Below, piece by piece: positions 3,796 to 58,695 of a DNA stretch of 64,000 bases. A program made the translations under genes and the position numbers. The notes below the pieces were generated by a model. That model searched no databases and was not told the origin of the DNA. It saw only the letters and a list, made by a program, of their open reading frames with translations. Source of the DNA: Microbacterium sp. 1.5R (lineage in GTDB: Bacteria; Actinomycetota; Actinomycetes; Actinomycetales; Microbacteriaceae); the NCBI RefSeq assembly GCF_001889265.1, contig NZ_CP018151.1, forward strand, positions 682,001-746,000, given 5' to 3'. Every line of letters starts with the position of its first letter. Position 1 is the stretch's first letter.

Positions 3796-4350
3796 TCAGG
3801 GCGTCGCGTTCAGTGCCCTGACAGAGTTCGAAAGATGCTGCGCCAGGGCTTCGCGCAGTGCAGTGGGCATAGGGTCCGCGCCCGTCGAGGCATGAAGCCA
3901 GAGCCCGTCGGCGGCAAGAAGCATGGCCATCTTTTCTAGAGCTGCCGGGTCATTCGGGTTGATGCTGCGCGGGTCCGGCGTCCAGCGACGGACGACGTCC
4001 TGCCACGGCCGGTTGAGAGCCTCGTCGTTGGAGGCCTCGAGCATAAGGAGAAGCTCGGGTCCTGATATGCCTGCCGCGCTGACACGAGCGTATGCGGCAA
4101 GACGCTCGTCCTCAGTGGCTTCCTCTGGCTGACGGCCGAGCGCCTCTATGAGCTGCGCCTCCCAGAGCTTCGCCTGGTGCTCATGAAGCGCAAGGACCAT
4201 CGCGTCTTTGGACGCGAAGTGGTAGAGGAGTCCACCCTTGGTGAGGCCGGACGCCGCCGCTACGGACTCGAAGGTGACAGCGGTGACGCCGTGGGCCCCG
4301 ACGACACCCAGCGCGGCATCAAGAATCATCTCGCGTTTGCTTGTACGCAT
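3796..4350 (-). CDS. TetR/AcrR-family repressor
   Basis: 184 aa. The N-terminal TetR helix-turn-helix is clear: KREMILDAALGVVGAHG, then TFESVAAASGLTKGGLLYHFASKD. The ligand-binding half is helical and not assignable. The start ATG is preceded by GGAGAAG. The gene sits 14 bp downstream of the MFS exporter on the same strand, so the two probably share a transcript. The likely target is the palindrome at 5889-5912 in front of the exporter. A second TetR at 6956 has the same GGLLYHF/GGMMYHF recognition-helix style, suggesting related modules. Confidence 0.9.
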   Translation of the reverse strand: MRTSKREMILDAALGVVGAHGVTAVTFESVAAASGLTKGGLLYHFASKDAMVLALHEHQAKLWEAQLIEALGRQPEEATEDERLAAYARVSAAGISGPELLLMLEASNDEALNRPWQDVVRRWTPDPRSINPNDPAALEKMAMLLAADGLWLHASTGADPMPTALREALAQHLSNSVRALNATP

Positions 4351-4364
4351 GATCTTCTCCGTGG

Positions 4365-5861
4365 TCAGTGTTCAGAGTGCATCTGCGATCGAGTCCCGGG
4401 TCGGTACGTCCGTAGAAGCACACCGCTCAGAGCTGTTGCGACCGCGAGGGCGACGGCGACGATAACCATAACAACCAGATAGGCGGAGTCAAACGCACTC
4501 GAGGCAGCGGTGATGATCGAGGTGTCGCCCTCGGCCAGACGAAGAGCCTCGGTGATGCCCTCGCGGGCACCGGCAGGCGCCCCAGGTGGCAGCCTCACTG
4601 TCGAGCTGAATACAACGCTCAGCGTGCTTCCGAGGAGGGCAACGGCAGTGAGGCTGCCGAACTCATACGAGACTTCTTCGACGGCTGCCGCCATGCCGGC
4701 CCTCTGAACGGGAACATTGCCGATGATTGCCGACGAGGCGACCGACATCGCGGCTCCCATTCCCGCTCCCGTGATCACCAGCCCGACGACCAGAAGCCCG
4801 AATGAAGTCGGAAACCCAAGAATGGTCACGATGGCGCCGATGGTGGCGAACCCGAGACCTCCCGTGATGAGTGCGAGCAGTCCAGTCCGGTGGAGGAATG
4901 CCCCGCCGAGAATTGCAGTGGGCAACGAGCCGATCGCGACGGCGGAGACAAGGATCCCCGCCTCAAGAGGGCTGAATCCAGCGACGAGTTGGAAGCGCTG
5001 CGTTGTCGCCAGTTGGATGCCCGCGACCGCGAACGTCGCGAACGCAGCGGCGAGGACTCCGGATGAGAACGCCCCATTCCGGAAGATCGAGAACTCTAGG
5101 AGGGGCTGAGCCAGGCGGCGCTGCCGGCGAACGAAGACGGTGAACGCGACGATGGCAATCACCACGGCGCCTATCAAGACAGGGATAGAGGGCGGGTTGT
5201 GGCCGACTTCCTTGATCGCGAACACGGTACCCACGAGGCCGACCATCACCTGGAGGGAGGAGATTGCATCCCATCTCTTGGAGCGGTCTGTGTCGTTGGC
5301 AGGACGCAACATCACCACTGCAATGAGAGCCGCGACAACGACGGGGACGTTGAGGAGGAAGACGGAACCCCACCAGAAGAACTCCAACAGCGCGCCTCCA
5401 AGGATCGGGCCGAGCGCTCCTCCGACGAGGGAGGCGCTACCCCAGATAGCGATGGCGATGTTGCGTTCGCGCTCGATGGTGAAGTTGGTGCGGATCAGTG
5501 CAAGTGTGGCCGGCATCATGGACGCAGCGCCCACGGCGAGGATGGCCCGGGCAGCGATCAGGATCTCCGCCGTGGGAGAAAACGCAGCCAAGAGCGAGGC
5601 CGCACCGAAGATGACGAGACCGATGATGAACATGCGAGTGTGGCCAATACGGTCACCCAGCGTGCCGCTGCCGAGTAGCAGCCCCGCCATCACCAAGGGA
5701 TACGCGTTGATGATCCACAACCCCTGCGTGCTCGTTGCCCCCAGTTCACGCGTCAAAGTGGGTAGCGCTGTGTACAGGATCGAGTTGTCCAACGTGATCA
5801 GCAGCAGACCTGCCGTCACCGTCGCCAACAACAGCCAGCGCTGCTGCTTCGTCAAAATCAC
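4365..5861 (-). CDS. MFS multidrug exporter, EmrB/QacA (DHA2) type
   Basis: About 498 aa, with predicted 14 membrane segments. After TM1 (LLLATVTAGLLLITLDNSIL, with the D-x-S motif of DHA2 exporters) comes the loop GDRIGHTRMF (motif A) and later GGALGPILGGALLEF (motif C of antiporters). It should be a proton-driven drug or metabolite exporter in the cytoplasmic membrane. Start choice: the frame stays open to an ATG at 5933, but that start would place the operator and promoter inside the gene. GTG at 5859-5861 or TTG at 5853-5855 (after GGAG) fits better, giving MTKQQRW. Its TetR follows 14 bp downstream. Confidence 0.88.
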   Translation of the reverse strand: MILTKQQRWLLLATVTAGLLLITLDNSILYTALPTLTRELGATSTQGLWIINAYPLVMAGLLLGSGTLGDRIGHTRMFIIGLVIFGAASLLAAFSPTAEILIAARAILAVGAASMMPATLALIRTNFTIERERNIAIAIWGSASLVGGALGPILGGALLEFFWWGSVFLLNVPVVVAALIAVVMLRPANDTDRSKRWDAISSLQVMVGLVGTVFAIKEVGHNPPSIPVLIGAVVIAIVAFTVFVRRQRRLAQPLLEFSIFRNGAFSSGVLAAAFATFAVAGIQLATTQRFQLVAGFSPLEAGILVSAVAIGSLPTAILGGAFLHRTGLLALITGGLGFATIGAIVTILGFPTSFGLLVVGLVITGAGMGAAMSVASSAIIGNVPVQRAGMAAAVEEVSYEFGSLTAVALLGSTLSVVFSSTVRLPPGAPAGAREGITEALRLAEGDTSIITAASSAFDSAYLVVMVIVAVALAVATALSGVLLRTYRPGTRSQMHSEH

Positions 5862-5888
5862 TCCGCACACTCCATCTTCCGAATCATA

Positions 5889-5912
5889 AGTATACCGGAT
5901 GAAAGGTATAGT
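5889..5912. promoter_or_regulatory. Candidate TetR operator upstream of MFS exporter
   Basis: AGTATACC-N8-GGTATAGT is a near-perfect inverted repeat (7 of 8 pairs) about 30 bp upstream of the exporter start. The minus strand reads TATACTTATGATTC here, so the site probably overlaps the -10 box. The gene for the likely binder is the TetR at 3796-4350. Confidence 0.6.
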
Positions 5913-6279
5913 TATGAAGGCCGATCGCAGCAACTTCCGACCGCATTTGCATCCTGGGGTTGATAAGTCGTTCGTGGCGAGGGTCGCGCGTACCCGACGT
6001 TCTCCGCATCGCCAGCGGTGTCGTCATGGCCGCCCCTGGACCCGGCTAGACGCGAATTTACTTGCCAGTAACGAGCGCGAGACGTGCCCGTATCGTGAGT
6101 TCGATTGTCTTGAGTCGTCCTCGGCGAGGGCGCCCGCCGACTCAGCTACGGGTTCGGCGGGGAGGCACTCTCGATCGAAAGCATCGATTCGAGGGTCTGA
6201 GGCGCCGCGGCGTAGGCCACCCATGGCCGCGCGGCCATGCAATCGGTGACCGCCTCATCTCTGCCTCGCAAGGAGACTC
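5913..6279. other. Intergenic region between divergent efflux and hydrolase genes
   Basis: About 370 bp with no supported gene. Open frames at 6024-6242 (minus) and 6062-6373 (plus) lack ribosome-binding sites and known motifs. The latter also overlaps the hydrolase start. The promoter of the hydrolase must lie here, but no clear -35/-10 pair was recognised. Confidence 0.4.
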
Positions 6280-6955: not shown

Positions 6956-7498
6956 CTAGAGATCGGTGCTGAGAGCGATGATCTCCTGAGTGATTCCTAC
7001 CCTCGCATCCTGCGGGATTTCATCGCCTCCGAGGGAGTGGTGGGACCAAAGTCCGTCCGCCGCCAGGCAGGCGATGAACTGCCGCAGAATGGTTCGATCT
7101 TCCGCCGCCTCCTGGCTCGAAGGCGTCCATCGTCGACGGACGCTCGCTATGGGTTCCCGACCCTGAGGATCGTTGCCAGCCGCCTGGAGCAGCCCAATCT
7201 GCATGCTCGTCGATGGCGTCACAGCGACGGAGATGTACGCGTTCACCCTCTCTGGCAGTGAGGCTTCGTCCGCAGTTTTCCCCGCAGCTTCGATGAGTTG
7301 GGCTTCCCAACTCATCGCCACGTGTTCTTGCATCGCATGGGCGAGGGCCGCTCGGTCTTTGAAGTGGTACATCATTCCGCCGCGCGTGAGGCCAGCTTCT
7401 TCGGCGGTGGCCTCGAGCGTGACTCGGCCGGCACCCTCGCGCCCGGCGACACGCACTGCAGCATCGAGAATCCGAGTTCGACTGTTAGGTCTAGTCAT
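6956..7498 (-). CDS. TetR/AcrR-family repressor of the adjacent MFS gene
   Basis: 180 aa from the ATG at 7496-7498 (MTRPNSRTRILDAAVRVAG). The HTH reads VTLEATAEEAGLTRGGMMYHFKD. An in-frame upstream ATG (7570) would lie inside the 32-bp palindrome, so the shorter protein is chosen. It is divergent from the exporter at 7692, and the palindrome at 7544-7575 between them is the obvious operator for both promoters. The ligand-binding region is unassigned. Related in the recognition region to the TetR at 3796, but not a close copy. Confidence 0.9.
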   Translation of the reverse strand: MTRPNSRTRILDAAVRVAGREGAGRVTLEATAEEAGLTRGGMMYHFKDRAALAHAMQEHVAMSWEAQLIEAAGKTADEASLPERVNAYISVAVTPSTSMQIGLLQAAGNDPQGREPIASVRRRWTPSSQEAAEDRTILRQFIACLAADGLWSHHSLGGDEIPQDARVGITQEIIALSTDL

Positions 7499-7543
7499 CC
7501 TGTGCCCTTCGTGGAGAGCCGAAGAAGACTCTTCGCTCGCCCT

Positions 7544-7575
7544 CATAAGTGTACATTCATGAATGTACACTTATG
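7544..7575. promoter_or_regulatory. Perfect 32-bp palindrome, probable TetR operator
   Basis: The two halves CATAAGTGTACATTCA and TGAATGTACACTTATG are exact reverse complements with no spacer. The site lies between divergent tetR and MFS genes. It covers a candidate rightward promoter (-35 TGTACA at 7550-7555, 16-bp spacer, -10 TATGGT at 7572-7577), so a bound repressor would block RNA polymerase. Confidence 0.8.
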
Positions 7576-7582
7576 GTACTGT

Positions 7583-7691
7583 GGTGCCCTGCCCAGCTCC
7601 GGTGCTGCGGGTGGTCGCGCGGAATTCCTGCGCGGATCCGAGGCTGAAAACCTCCAGCGACTTCATCTCATAGAAGCCTGGAGGTTTCTTC
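7583..7691 (+). ncRNA. Structured 5' leader of MFS gene, riboswitch/attenuator-like (copy A)
   Basis: From the inferred start near 7583 the leader can fold as follows. P1 pairs CCCAGC 7592-7597 with GCTGcGG 7604-7610, loop TCCGGT. P2 pairs GCGCGG 7617-7622 with CTGCGC 7628-7633. P3 pairs GAGG 7640-7643 with CCTC 7651-7654. P4 pairs AAACCTCCAG 7648-7657 with CTGGAGGTTT 7678-7687. P3 and P4 share CCTC and cannot coexist, and P4 buries the Shine-Dalgarno GGAGG 7 nt before the ATG. A second copy with compensating changes precedes the MFS gene at 57250. The sensed signal is unknown. Confidence 0.65.
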
Positions 7692-9146
7692 ATGTCCAAA
7701 ATCTTGGACAAGCCCAGCACTCGCTGGTGGGCACTCGCCGTTCTTGCGATGACTCAGCTCGTCGTCGTGCTCGACACGATGATCGTCACCATCGCGCTGC
7801 CCCAAGCGCAAGCTGACCTGGGCATGACGGATACGCAGCGTCAGTGGGTCGTCACCGCCTACGCCCTGGCTTTCGGTGCCCTGCTGCTCCTCGGCGGTCG
7901 GATCGCCGACTACTGGGGGCGGAAGCGCACCTTCATGGTGGGTATGTTCGGCTTCGGAGCAGCCTCACTATGGGCCGGACTCTCGCAGAGTGGCATGGAA
8001 CTGATCATCGCCCGAGGCGTTCAAGGCGCGTTCGCGGCGTTGCTGGCCCCGGCCGCACTCGCCATGCTCACCGTGACATTCCCTCACGGCAAAGAGCGCA
8101 ACACCGCGTTCGCCATCTTCGGCACAGTCGCGGGATCAGGAGCCGCGATCGGCTTGATTCTGGGCGGCGTGCTCACGGAGTTCACAGACTGGCGTTGGTG
8201 CCTTCTCGTCAACATCTTCTTCGTGATCATCGGCCTCGTCGGCGGCGCACTGGTGCTGCGTGAGAGCAAGGCAGAAGGTGGCAACCGCTACGACATCTGG
8301 GGAACGATCACCGTGACCCTCGGCTTGGGCTCGCTCGTCTACGGATTTACGCTCGCTGAGCACGGCTGGGGCTCCATTGACACTGTCGGTTTCCTCGTGC
8401 TGGGCGTGGGTCTGCTCGTGGCCTTCGTGCTCATCGAACTCAAGGTCGCTCAGCCACTGCTGCCCTTGCGCGTCATCCTGCACCGAGTCCGAGGGGGAGC
8501 GATCCTGATCCAGGCAGCGAACGGGGCCGTGATGATCGGTGCCATCCTCTACCTCGCGTTCTACTTCCAGATCGTTCTCGGCATGGGGCCGCTCATGGCT
8601 GGACTTGCGAACCTCGCCATGACGATCGCGATCATGGCGTTCTCGCCCGTCACCACGAAGATCCTCAACAGGTTCGGACCGCGTCCGTTGATGATCGTTG
8701 GCCCGCTCGTCTCGGCGGCCGCACTCTTCATGCTCCTCGGCATCACTCCGGACGGGAACTACTTCATCCAGGTGCTCCCTGCGCTGATTGTCCTCGGCGT
8801 CGGTCTCTCGATGCTCTTCGTCCCGGTTCAGAACCTTGCTCTGCTCAACGTGGAGAACCACGATGCAGGCGTGGCCTCCGCGGTTGTGAACTCCGTGTTC
8901 CATATCGGCGGATCGATCGGGCTTGCGGTGTTTACGGTGTTCTACTCGAGCACGTTCGCTGGAGCGATCGCCACGGGTACGCCGGAGCTGACGGCGTTCA
9001 CCGACGGGTACAAAGCAGTGTTCCTCGCCGCAGCAATCACCATGGTCGCCGCTTCGGTGATCGGGTTCTCTTTCATCCGCGGAAAGAAGGAAGAGCTCAA
9101 CCCCGCCTGGGATGAGGCAGAGCCTGAGGCCGCGATCTTGCACTGA
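7692..9146 (+). CDS. MFS multidrug exporter, EmrB/QacA (DHA2) type
   Basis: 484 aa, 14 predicted membrane segments. Motifs seen: VVVLDTMIVTIALPQAQ in TM1, GGRIADYWGRKRTF (motif A), and GTVAGSGAAIGLILGGVLTEF (motif C, antiporter signature). It is strongly similar along its whole length to the product of 57250-58695 in this window, so the two are paralogues or duplicate acquisitions. Expression appears doubly controlled, by the divergent TetR with its palindrome and by the structured leader whose P4 hairpin includes the ribosome-binding site. The stem-loop at 9158-9202 ends the transcript. Substrate unknown. Confidence 0.92.
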   Translation: MSKILDKPSTRWWALAVLAMTQLVVVLDTMIVTIALPQAQADLGMTDTQRQWVVTAYALAFGALLLLGGRIADYWGRKRTFMVGMFGFGAASLWAGLSQSGMELIIARGVQGAFAALLAPAALAMLTVTFPHGKERNTAFAIFGTVAGSGAAIGLILGGVLTEFTDWRWCLLVNIFFVIIGLVGGALVLRESKAEGGNRYDIWGTITVTLGLGSLVYGFTLAEHGWGSIDTVGFLVLGVGLLVAFVLIELKVAQPLLPLRVILHRVRGGAILIQAANGAVMIGAILYLAFYFQIVLGMGPLMAGLANLAMTIAIMAFSPVTTKILNRFGPRPLMIVGPLVSAAALFMLLGITPDGNYFIQVLPALIVLGVGLSMLFVPVQNLALLNVENHDAGVASAVVNSVFHIGGSIGLAVFTVFYSSTFAGAIATGTPELTAFTDGYKAVFLAAAITMVAASVIGFSFIRGKKEELNPAWDEAEPEAAILH

Positions 9147-19964: not shown

Positions 19965-20957
19965 CTATGACATGTGGCGCGCCCAGAAGGCGTCCTGGGA
20001 CCAGTCCTGTGGGATACCCATGCCGGCGAGATTCATCGGCGGACGAGTGCTGATCAGCTGATGCAGTCGCCGCGCCCAAGTGCTTCGGGGTGATACGACG
20101 TCGAGCACGGACTGCAGCGACACGAGCACGGGGTAGAGACGCTTCTGTGAGGGCGAAGGGAGTGCCGTGTCGCCCTCCAGCCAGGCGATCGCAGGGGAGG
20201 CTGGAATCGCTGGGTAAACACCTATGCCCACGTTCCAGAGTCGACCGTGGTGGGCGCAGATGTTCCGAACCCGCACGTAGGTGCGAAGCCATGACATGAG
20301 CACCGGCTCACTCAGGCCGAGACGTCTCGCAATAGTTGTCCGGTCAGCGCGCAGGGCGAGGTTGTTGATCACGTTGTTCAGCTGGCCGAGCGTGAGCGTC
20401 TCCACCATCAGCCACGAGGGTGGCAGCTCGGGTTCACCGTAGGTGAGCAGATAGTGCTCGAGTGCTGAGCGGTAGACAACGTTGGAGGGCTGGCTCGCTG
20501 GCTCCGGGGCGCCGGCGAGACGAGCTTCGGAGGTGTCGCGAATGAGCTTTAGAAGGTGTGTGTGCTTTCCGCGGTCCTGAAAATGAGCGGGGGCGACGTA
20601 CCAGTGTGGGTCCTCGTACACAGTCGACATATGATCCGTCAGCGCCGCGCGCACAGCGACTTCGACCCGCTCCAGCGCATCCATTACCAGCAGTCTGAGC
20701 GCCCGATCGAAGACGTAGATGTCCAGCACATCATCGAACGCGGCACCAGTGCGGAACGTGTGGTCGGGCTGGCCCTGTTGGAAGGGGATCGTGTACGGCG
20801 ACAGTCGGAAATAGCCGATGTGCCGCAGGTACCGTGCAGCCCGTTCGCGATCCGGGACGTCGAGCCCTCGTTCGACCAGCCGACTGACGAGGTCGTCCAG
20901 GCTCAAGGCCGGCTTGTCGTAGGTGAGAGTGCCGCGAGGCCGGGGTGGTCGGGGCAT
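19965..20957 (-). CDS. Abi_2 (AbiD/AbiF-like) HEPN abortive-infection protein
   Basis: 330 aa from the ATG at 20955-20957, with GAGGAG 5 nt upstream; an in-frame start at 20993 would sit inside a terminator hairpin. Family hallmarks: an early YLRHIGYFRLSPYTIPF segment (canonical Y-Y-R-L-S-G-Y), FDRALRLLVMDALERVEVAVR in the middle, and the HEPN RNase motif R-x4-H in RNICAHHGRLWN (R231, H236). Abi_2 proteins are RNA-cleaving toxins that cause abortive infection or dormancy, and AbiF members have been linked to an upstream structured RNA acting as antitoxin. Such an RNA with a terminator is present at 20977-21026, which strengthens the call. Confidence 0.88.
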   Translation of the reverse strand: MPRPPRPRGTLTYDKPALSLDDLVSRLVERGLDVPDRERAARYLRHIGYFRLSPYTIPFQQGQPDHTFRTGAAFDDVLDIYVFDRALRLLVMDALERVEVAVRAALTDHMSTVYEDPHWYVAPAHFQDRGKHTHLLKLIRDTSEARLAGAPEPASQPSNVVYRSALEHYLLTYGEPELPPSWLMVETLTLGQLNNVINNLALRADRTTIARRLGLSEPVLMSWLRTYVRVRNICAHHGRLWNVGIGVYPAIPASPAIAWLEGDTALPSPSQKRLYPVLVSLQSVLDVVSPRSTWARRLHQLISTRPPMNLAGMGIPQDWSQDAFWARHMS

Positions 20958-20976
20958 CGATGCTCCTCTGGCCGGG

Positions 20977-21026
20977 AAAGAAAAACCTCCCAAGTGCGCA
21001 TCCAGGAGAGGCGTGGGAGGTGTAGT
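20977..21026 (-). ncRNA. Short hairpin RNA with terminator upstream of Abi_2 gene (abiF-RNA-like)
   Basis: On the minus strand a promoter-like pair (TTGCTC 21060-21055, 16-bp spacer, TACATT 21038-21033) should start a transcript near 21026. About 50 nt later it ends in a hairpin, ACCTCCCA 21021-21014 with TGGGAGGT 20992-20985, followed by TTTTCTTT. Most transcripts would end there and make a small RNA; readthrough would express the Abi gene 20 bp downstream. The layout matches the abiF RNA motif described upstream of abiF genes, though I cannot confirm the family match. Confidence 0.6.
20985..21021 (-). terminator. Intrinsic terminator between small RNA and Abi gene
   Basis: An 8-bp perfect stem (ACCTCCCA/TGGGAGGT) encloses a 21-nt loop, with TTTTCTTT on the minus-strand 3' side. 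This is one of the few true T-tract terminators in the window. The loop contains the 12-mer CTCCTGGATGCG, repeated upstream at 21089-21100. Confidence 0.7.
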
Positions 21027-57140: not shown

Positions 57141-57146
57141 TAATAT
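57141..57146 (+). promoter_or_regulatory. Candidate -10 box of the second structured leader
   Basis: TAATAT sits 6-7 bp before the inferred transcript start at about 57153. An acceptable -35 (GTTACG at 57118-57123, 17-bp spacing) precedes it. Unlike copy A at 7544-7575, no palindrome overlaps this promoter. Confidence 0.5.
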
Positions 57147-57152
57147 GGATGC

Positions 57153-57249
57153 TCTGCTCAGCCCCGTCGGCTGAGGTGGTCAGGCGCTGACGCGCGCTGG
57201 TCCGAGGCTCGAAACCTCCGGCATCGTCCCCGACACCGGAGGTTCTTCC
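57153..57249 (+). ncRNA. Structured 5' leader of MFS gene, riboswitch/attenuator-like (copy B)
   Basis: Same layout as copy A. P1 is CTCAGCC 57157-57163 with GGCTGAG 57169-57175; P2 is GGCGC 57183-57187 with GCGCT 57194-57198. The conserved linker GGTGGTC lies between them. P3 is GAGG 57204-57207 with CCTC 57215-57218. The competing P4 is AACCTCCGG 57213-57221 with CCGGAGGTT 57236-57244, which contains the Shine-Dalgarno 7 nt before the ATG. Differences from copy A in P1 and P4 preserve pairing (CCAG:CTGG in A becomes CCGG:CCGG in B). Confidence 0.65.
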
Positions 57250-58695
57250 ATGTCATCGTCCCTGCGCGCCCGCCCCCAGACACGGTGGTGGGCGCTCGTC
57301 GTCATCTCCCTCACGCAGCTGATCGTCGTCCTCGACGGCACCATCGTCAGCATCGCCCTGCCGCAGGCGCAGGCATCGCTCGGTCTGAGCGACGGCCAGC
57401 GTCAGTGGGTGGTCACGGCCTACGCCCTCGCCTTCGGCGCGCTGCTTCTGCTCGGAGGACGCATCGCCGACTACCTCGGTCGCAAGCGCACCTTCATGAT
57501 CGGGATGGTGGGCTTCGGCGCGGCGTCCCTGTTCGGCGGCCTCGCGCAGTCCGGCTGGGAGCTGATCCTCGCGCGCGGCCTCCAGGGGGTCTTCGCCGCG
57601 CTCCTCGCTCCCGCCGCCCTCGCTCTCCTCACCGTGACCTTCCCCTCCGGGAAGGAGCGCAACACGGCGTTCGCCGTCTTCGGGACGGTCGCAGGAACAG
57701 GAGCGGCCGTCGGTCTGCTCCTGGGCGGATTCCTCACGGAGTTCACCGATTGGCGCTGGTGCCTGCTCGTCAACCTGTTCTTCGTCGCGATCGGACTGAT
57801 CGGCGGAGCGCTCTTCCTGACGGAGAGCAAGGCGGACGGCGACAACCGCTACGACGTCTGGGGCGCGATCACCGTGACCCTCGGTCTCGGCTCCCTCGTC
57901 TACGGGTTCAGCCTCGCCGAGAACGGCTGGGGCGACCCGCTGACCATCACCTTCCTCGTGCTCGGAGTCGTGCTGCTCGCCGCGTTCGTCTGGGTCGAGA
58001 GCCGCGTGGCCCAGCCGCTCCTTCCGCTGCGGGTCGTCGCGGACCGGGTCAGGGGTGGTGCGTTCCTGATCCAGGGCGTGGCCGGAGCGATCATGATCGG
58101 CGCGACGCTCTACCTGACCTTCCACCTGCAGTTCGTGCTCGGGATGGGCGCGCTTCAGGCGGGCGCGGCGACCCTGCCGCTGCCGATCGCCACGATGATC
58201 ATCGCCCCGATCGCGACCAAGCTGCTCGGAGTGATCGGACCGCGGCCGATGATGATCGTCGGACCACTCATCGCCGCGGCGGGTCTGTTCCTGTTGTCGG
58301 GCATCACCCCGGACGGCGCCTACCTGGTGCAGATCGCCCCGGCGCTCGTGCTGCTCGGCGTCGGCATGGGCTTCGTCTTCATCCCGCTGCAGAACCTCGC
58401 TCTCACCGGAGTGGCTCCGCACGACGCGGGCATCGCGTCGGCAGTCGCCAACTCGGCCATGCAGATCGGCGGATCGATCGGCCTGTCGGTGTTCACAGCC
58501 GTGTACGCCGCGTCGGTCGGAGGGCACGCCCAGGCGGATCTCGACCCCGGGCAGCTGACCGACGCTTACGGCTGGGTCTTCATCGTCGCGTCGATCCTCA
58601 TGCTCGTCGCCGCGGTGATCGCCGCGGTGATGGTGCGGGGCACGAAGGACGAGCTGATGCCGGCGCAGCCGGGACTGGCCGTCGCTGCGCACTGA
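57250..58695 (+). CDS. MFS multidrug exporter, EmrB/QacA (DHA2) type
   Basis: 481 aa, 14 predicted segments. TM1 carries IVVLDGTIVSIALPQAQ, motif A is GGRIADYLGRKRTF, and motif C is GTVAGTGAAVGLLLGGFLTEF. Nearly every signature segment matches the product of 7692-9146 (SDGQRQWVVTAYALAFGALLLLGGRIADY and similar), so the two are paralogues. This copy has high GC like its neighbours and no adjacent TetR, and is probably the native one. It shares the structured leader, so both genes should answer to the same RNA-level signal. Confidence 0.93.
   Translation: MSSSLRARPQTRWWALVVISLTQLIVVLDGTIVSIALPQAQASLGLSDGQRQWVVTAYALAFGALLLLGGRIADYLGRKRTFMIGMVGFGAASLFGGLAQSGWELILARGLQGVFAALLAPAALALLTVTFPSGKERNTAFAVFGTVAGTGAAVGLLLGGFLTEFTDWRWCLLVNLFFVAIGLIGGALFLTESKADGDNRYDVWGAITVTLGLGSLVYGFSLAENGWGDPLTITFLVLGVVLLAAFVWVESRVAQPLLPLRVVADRVRGGAFLIQGVAGAIMIGATLYLTFHLQFVLGMGALQAGAATLPLPIATMIIAPIATKLLGVIGPRPMMIVGPLIAAAGLFLLSGITPDGAYLVQIAPALVLLGVGMGFVFIPLQNLALTGVAPHDAGIASAVANSAMQIGGSIGLSVFTAVYAASVGGHAQADLDPGQLTDAYGWVFIVASILMLVAAVIAAVMVRGTKDELMPAQPGLAVAAH

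Follow-up and report, generated by a model that had tools for sequence, protein, structure and literature searches.

The window analysed here, a stretch of 64,000 nucleotides from Microbacterium sp. 1.5R (contig NZ_CP018151.1, positions 682,001 to 746,000), carries two genes for DHA2/EmrB-like MFS exporters, each of which is preceded by a copy of the same structured leader (Table 1). The nearest solved relative of the second exporter is EfpA (E = 8e-61). In both copies a conserved CTG is followed by three hairpins, P1 to P3, and by a fourth, longer pairing, P4. The initial annotation had described P3 and P4 of copy 1, with the CCTC strand common to both and P4 covering the Shine-Dalgarno sequence, and we find them where it placed them; the buried Shine-Dalgarno is GGAGG at 7680-7684. 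The second copy that it announced is also borne out (57154-57252, upstream of the second exporter gene). Its starting point for the RNA of copy 1, position 7583, has to be moved, as this position falls between the -10-like box and the inferred start, the probable beginning of the RNA being the CTG at 7589-7591 or a site close to it. P1 of copy 1 is imperfect, with a 2-nt bulge, compared to a near 7-bp stem in copy 2 and most relatives. The segment 7575-7700 folds with -53 kcal/mol, against -41.8 ± 3.55 kcal/mol in 200 shuffles (z = -3.15). Within its own genome (3.62 Mb, single contig) the leader occurs in these two copies only, both by exact pattern and by our final covariance model, R3, at E = 0.001. 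Another pair of genes near the leader (3796-5933, minus strand), regulator-like and exporter-like as judged by eye from the translations, has no leader of this type according to R3.

Table 1. Features of the two leaders and their adjoining genes (positions in the window).
Feature	Position	Strand	Basis
TetR-family regulator gene, divergent from exporter	6956..7570	-	Pfam TetR_N and TetR_C_28; longest open frame
32-bp perfect palindrome over copy 1 promoter	7544..7575	.	16-nt arms, 100% complementary; repeat search
-10-like box TACTGT, copy 1	7577..7582	+	Sequence; 6 nt upstream of first conserved base
Core RNA, copy 1 (CTG-P1-linker-P2-P3)	7589..7657	+	R3 match, 50.7 bits; fold
Copy 1: P1 (with bulge); GGTC; P2 as far as GATCC	7592-7611; 7613-7616; 7635-7639	+	Sequence
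Copy 1 P3: GAGG / loop CTGAAAA / CCTC	7640-7643 / 7644-7650 / 7651-7654	+	Sequence
Copy 1 P4: AAACCTCCAG with CTGGAGGTTT	7648-7657 with 7678-7687	+	Sequence, fold; P4 covariation in relatives
DHA2/EmrB-like MFS exporter gene 1	7692..9146	+	Pfam MFS_1; best NCBIfam TIGR00711, 223.2 bits, just below cut-off 230.2
-10-like box TAATAT, copy 2	57141..57146	+	Sequence; 7 nt upstream of first conserved base
Core RNA, copy 2	57154..57221	+	R3 match, 72.6 bits; pre-Shine-Dalgarno transcript folds into P1-P2-P3
Copy 2: P1; GGTC	57157-57163 with 57169-57175; 57178-57181	+	
Copy 2: P2 as far as GGTCC (bulged T 57201)	57199-57203	+	
Copy 2 P3: GAGG / loop CTCGAAA / CCTC	57204-57207 / 57208-57214 / 57215-57218	+	
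Copy 2 P4: AACCTCCGG with CCGGAGGTT, Shine-Dalgarno GGAGG buried	57213-57221 with 57236-57244	+	Sequence, fold
DHA2/EmrB-like MFS exporter gene 2	57250..58695	+	NCBIfam TIGR00711, 243 bits, above cut-off 230.2

Further homologues, on which the initial annotation had staked its reading, proved to be numerous and to lie upstream of the same kind of exporter gene. When 150 genomes of the same family were searched for the motif with at most one mismatch, 24 places in 23 genomes matched, compared with 5 for the pattern read backwards; 17 of the 24, both window copies included, are clear leaders by eye, and seven were dropped (L014, L020, L027, L028, L030, L032, L036). Covariance model R2 gave matches in 16 of 396 genomes of the order. 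Six of its places were judged false by eye (L043, L047, L049, L050, L052, L053), and L058, L061 and L063 (the last two being one place) were likewise dropped before counting; among those kept is a shorter variant, type B, which occurs in other families as well. A pattern covering types A and B then returned 102 loci from 84,980 species genomes; in 82 of these, a gene related to the window exporters begins no more than 160 nt downstream. The other 20 consist of 15 chance matches dropped by eye, mostly from non-actinobacterial records (L079, L115 and L136 come from actinobacterial ones, L145 and L150 from records listed without a title, and L066 and L087 have too little downstream DNA for the next-gene test), two leaders cut off by the limits of the record piece and three leaders before another gene. 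This left 87 loci, namely the 82 with the exporter together with L070, L077, L080, L121 and L135. Fifty of the 87 are non-redundant (<86% identity), and in 12 leaders of that set the first base was placed by hand, the automatic choice of P1 being poor.

Among the matches listed (80 records of the pattern scan), leaders are found in at least 22 named genera, including Microbacterium, Leifsonia, Herbiconiux, Subtercola, Agromyces, Labedella, Pseudoclavibacter, Oerskovia, Cellulomonas, Cellulosimicrobium, Serinibacter, Nakamurella, Aeromicrobium, Umezawaea, Prescottella and Streptomyces. R3 matched 47 of 299 family genomes and 11 of 394 class genomes, seven of the latter outside the family and order. 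In a phylum sample it matched 3 of 316 genomes and none outside the class. All three scans used stricter filters, with which weak matches are lost. That the leader is a real, conserved, cis-acting actinobacterial RNA is as good as certain.

The leader forms a conserved, structured 5′ UTR domain with compensatory changes, which the initial annotation had also looked to for support; these are strong in P1 and P2 and present at one pair each in P3 and P4. RNAalifold, applied to 52 leaders, found P1 and P2 without help, the latter lengthened by a pairing of GGUC with GRUCC whose U is bulged, and did not return P3. In A4, a MAFFT alignment of the 52 leaders made blind to structure, two-sided changes occur in 12 of 19 pairs, and the 132 two-sided cells compare with 48.0 ± 6.9 in shuffles, none of the 500 shuffles reaching 132, and with at most 37 in a control with slid structures. 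An alignment of 78 model-aligned leaders, 77 of them distinct (A5), leans to the model and has two-sided changes in 13 of 18 pairs (218 cells; 63.0 ± 9.0 shuffled; at most 53 slid). Outside P1, two individual pairs are the mainstay of the evidence. For the 77 distinct rows, P2 pair 33-122 is U-A in 33, U-G in 32, C-G in 10, C-A in none and otherwise in 2, one of them U-U, so that C always stands opposite G (10 of 10; p = 0.0019, a value inflated by relatedness). P3 pair 127-139 is A-U in 56, G-U in 6, G-C in 4 and a deletion opposite C in 11, and never A-C (p = 1.5e-11 when G is lumped with the deletion, again inflated by relatedness); two of the four P3 pairs are invariant in A5. The 539 cells of P1 comprise 447 Watson-Crick pairs, 50 G-U pairs and 42 unpaired positions, and the G-U pairs favour an RNA over a DNA operator.

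All 78 rows of A5 share the bulged U of P2, the G at column 3, C124, G126, GG 128-129, CU 130-131, A134, A136 and CC 137-138, and 77 share A135; part of this invariance is due to selection, since the pattern scan demanded the core motif. The P3 loop, CUNRAAA, is near-invariant. This 7-nt loop (7644-7650 and 57208-57214) resembles a tRNA anticodon loop, with which it has the features U33, A37 and A38 in common, and the likeness may be a coincidence.

How the core would act on translation is clearest in type A, which comprises 41 of the 50 non-redundant leaders. Here a strand of P3 can pair with the Shine-Dalgarno as P4, the two hairpins would compete, and the on/off switch by exclusive hairpins proposed in the initial annotation is the probable mechanism; the same design is not seen in a P4-less sub-group. 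The P4 pair adjoining the Shine-Dalgarno is G-C in 22, A-U in 12 and a mismatch in 4 of 38 type-A leaders, the three others having no recognised Shine-Dalgarno. We folded 47 of the 50 leaders (40 type A, 7 type B). Free folding buries the Shine-Dalgarno in 34 of 40 type-A leaders; with P3 imposed as a constraint, it is buried in 11 of 40. In transcripts ending before the Shine-Dalgarno, P3 is part of the minimum-energy fold in 18 of 40; copy 2 of the window folds as P1-P2-P3, and P3 is absent from the fold of copy 1. The P4 state is more stable than the P3 state by 12.7 kcal/mol in copy 1 and 8.9 kcal/mol in copy 2. With this margin, OFF should be the default, and a ligand would have to act during transcription, holding P3, or bind very tightly. 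In type B (9 of 50), P3 is reduced to GGG/CCC, P4 is not evident, and burial of the Shine-Dalgarno is predicted in none of the seven leaders folded. The core is nevertheless kept (GATCCGGGCTGGAAACCCC; for example L083, L096, L099, L100 and L123). In a third group, L212-L218, P3 is a complete GGGG/CCCC pairing and P4, by eye, is not evident. A core that is conserved where the platform is not is what would be expected of an aptamer.

We consider it likely that the leader is a ligand-operated translational ON switch and represents an orphan riboswitch class absent from Rfam. The transcript would start at or near the conserved CUG, as promoter spacing suggests, and fold as three hairpins in a row: P1, P2 with its bulged U, and P3 (GRGG, CUNRAAA, CCYC). 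Without ligand, the CCUC strand of P3 is predicted to join the Shine-Dalgarno in a P4 of 9-10 bp, leaving the exporter untranslated, and covariation at the edge of P4 is in line with this. The exporter substrate or a related toxic small molecule may bind the P1-P2-P3 core; the bound core would hold P3 and block P4, and with the Shine-Dalgarno free the exporter would be made. That the signal is a small molecule we infer, and such a ligand would probably be the substrate of the exporter.

The genes behind the leader fit this reading, the leader being consistently linked to one group of exporters. Where the downstream gene of an R3 scan locus was checked, it is the exporter in 53 of 56 cases, window copies included. 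In a comparison across 120 family genomes, covering 30 of 36 exporter matches, R3 finds the leader upstream of 18 of the 20 exporter loci that are at least 66% identical to exporter 2 (30.5 to 72.6 bits, window copy included). The core motif is gone from the remaining two (19.2 and 26.6 bits), and among exporter loci below 66% identity the leader is present in 1 of 10. No plasmid-borne copy of exporter 2 was found at E = 1e-100 in the plasmid collection.

A few leaders stand before other genes. In Glaciihabitans (L077, the same place as L017 and L170), an intact leader precedes a pentapeptide-repeat gene (Pfam PF13599) in place of the exporter. The likeness of its product to Qnr/MfpA and to anti-phage HalA is weak, with NCBIfam scores far below the cut-offs (HalA, the best, 39.8 of 250 bits; QnrA 37.1 of 450), and this case might be taken as a thin hint of a gyrase-directed compound. 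In L033/L192 and L220 (two genomes), the leader is followed by a protein of 254-256 amino acids and no exporter; the protein of L033 has no Pfam or NCBIfam match. The Clavibacter leader L070 precedes a stretch resembling an exporter remnant and then a protein that by eye resembles the 254-256-residue one. L080 lacks the exporter as well, and its next protein we take, by eye, to resemble RuvA.

The same compact array of hairpins with invariant bases would suit a protein as binding site, and an RNA-binding protein on the core, in place of a small molecule, could then decide between P3 and P4. The lack of a known ligand and the unexplained output step of type B would also suit a protein. However, no candidate gene accompanies the leader: over some 2.5 kb in each direction, clusters of neighbouring frames contain at most 13 loci and form local groups, and distant actinobacteria would presumably all need the same binding protein. 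We regard protein control as unlikely. The same survey was searched for an operon partner that would name the ligand, and this idea was rejected, the neighbours forming only those local groups.

A lower probability still attaches to a passive switch, that is, an RNA thermometer or a fixed translational brake with no specific ligand. P4 by itself would silence translation, and the lack of a known ligand suits this explanation too, but a brake needs P4 only, and the bulged U, the CUNRAAA loop, the covarying P1 and P2 and the P4-less type B would all be left unexplained.

Ribosome-mediated attenuation, the alternative offered in the initial annotation, works on a principle common among drug-resistance genes: a ribosome stalled by the drug within a leader peptide in P1/P2 would free the Shine-Dalgarno. 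Short frames do exist, of 30 codons from a GTG in copy 1 (7581-7673; two further GTGs of this frame, at 7602 and 7611, fall within the inferred RNA) and of 13 codons from an ATG in copy 2, and some ATG, GTG or TTG lies upstream of the core in 46 of the 50 non-redundant leaders. Yet both window frames open with a start codon that precedes the inferred 5′ end. A -10 box of the form TAnnnT ends 5-7 nt upstream of the first conserved base in 45 of the 50 leaders, where 1.7 would be expected from shuffling; from this spacing in the DNA the RNA probably begins at P1, too near the promoter for a leader peptide to fit in between. Nor do the 50 leaders share a start codon (an ATG before the core in 14, a GTG in the linker in 24) or a conserved reading frame, the distances from start to core being spread over the three frames (18, 17 and 15), and P1 and P2 evolve through base-pair exchange. 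A leader peptide as control element was thus rejected, and attenuation appears very improbable. Least credible of all are chance hairpins or DNA operators taken for RNA. GC-rich DNA does fold readily and a true DNA palindrome adjoins copy 1, but the folding z-score of -3.15, covariation that includes G-U pairs and the presence of leaders in 22 named genera, which makes a chance origin untenable, leave such accounts next to no room.

The proposed switch of copy 1 may not act alone. The palindrome over its promoter is likely the operator of the divergent TetR-type regulator, the true start of whose gene is probably further in than that of the longest open frame. Copy 1 would thus probably be under double control, a repressor on the palindrome adding a second layer to the RNA. 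A similar palindrome precedes the leader L071 of Prescottella, as seen by eye. Some leaderless relatives of the exporter carry CCAACCAACTAGT-like palindromes, again by eye, which would seem to resemble TetR operators. At two loci, L240 and L243, remnants of the leader are found about 100 nt upstream of the exporter start; the core is lost and an operator-like CCAACCAACCAGTTGG palindrome occupies the place of P1, possibly a swap from RNA to protein control. Leaderless relatives, some with an operator-like palindrome, provide a natural setting in which to compare how one pump is controlled by RNA and how by protein.

More tentatively, the leader might stand for a class of natural riboswitches to which toxic natural products or drugs, the substrates of the exporter, are the direct signal in actinobacteria of more than one order, a possibility to which we give some weight while leaning against it. 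If true, a multidrug-type efflux pump would have a direct RNA drug sensor, and the RNA would take the place of the TetR-type control apparently found in more distant relatives of the pump. The leader is an orphan candidate with a nearly strict link to one gene, combining a core of about 70 nt, one exporter subfamily and culturable soil hosts, and through it natural drug-sensing riboswitches become directly testable. Once identified, the ligand would also tell what this uncharacterised efflux pump of actinobacteria transports.

The initial annotation recognised no known class in the leader, and the Rfam searches agree with it. No Rfam 15 family reached its gathering cut-off on a leader in the whole window or in 27 loci (window copy 2 again among these), and the T-box model matched none of the leaders searched. 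Outside the leaders, the same searches returned abiF and a tRNA; the abiF RNA (20985-21020, minus strand; 37.2 bits against a cut-off of 37) lies at the 5′ end of a 342-residue frame (19965-20993, minus strand), which may be the Abi partner gene. A permissive search with three leaders gave sub-threshold matches in two and nothing in the third; htlv_FSE (E = 0.52, the best) and Scr5676 (E = 0.87) were taken as chance and rejected as known families for the leader. The families of a 2017 catalogue of 224 candidate RNAs should reportedly be in Rfam 15. In the literature searched, including those parts of PMC8632094, PMC6429828 and PMC8040213 in which the terms were looked up, the element is not described.

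Several known systems come close to the leader in one respect or another. The erm, cml and cat translation attenuators also place exclusive hairpins over the Shine-Dalgarno upstream of a resistance gene; in contrast, the leader has no conserved leader peptide, and P1 is probably where its RNA starts. Competition of a small aptamer with the Shine-Dalgarno is familiar from preQ1, SAM-II and similar translational riboswitches, which are usually OFF with ligand, whereas the natural reading of the leader is ON with ligand, and Rfam returned no match to them. Guanidine riboswitches differ from the leader in host range and in exporter family. Like it they stand before exporter genes, which they are reported to switch on, Guanidine-IV (mepA) included (PMC7736828, PMC9788692), and the guanidine families stay below the gathering score on the leaders searched. 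The RNA of the yjdF riboswitch is described as binding diverse azaaromatic compounds (PMC4793209). No Rfam match connects it with the leader, and the gene behind the leader is an exporter and not yjdF. Set beside these systems, the leader is an addition to the riboswitch candidates and not a new kind of system.
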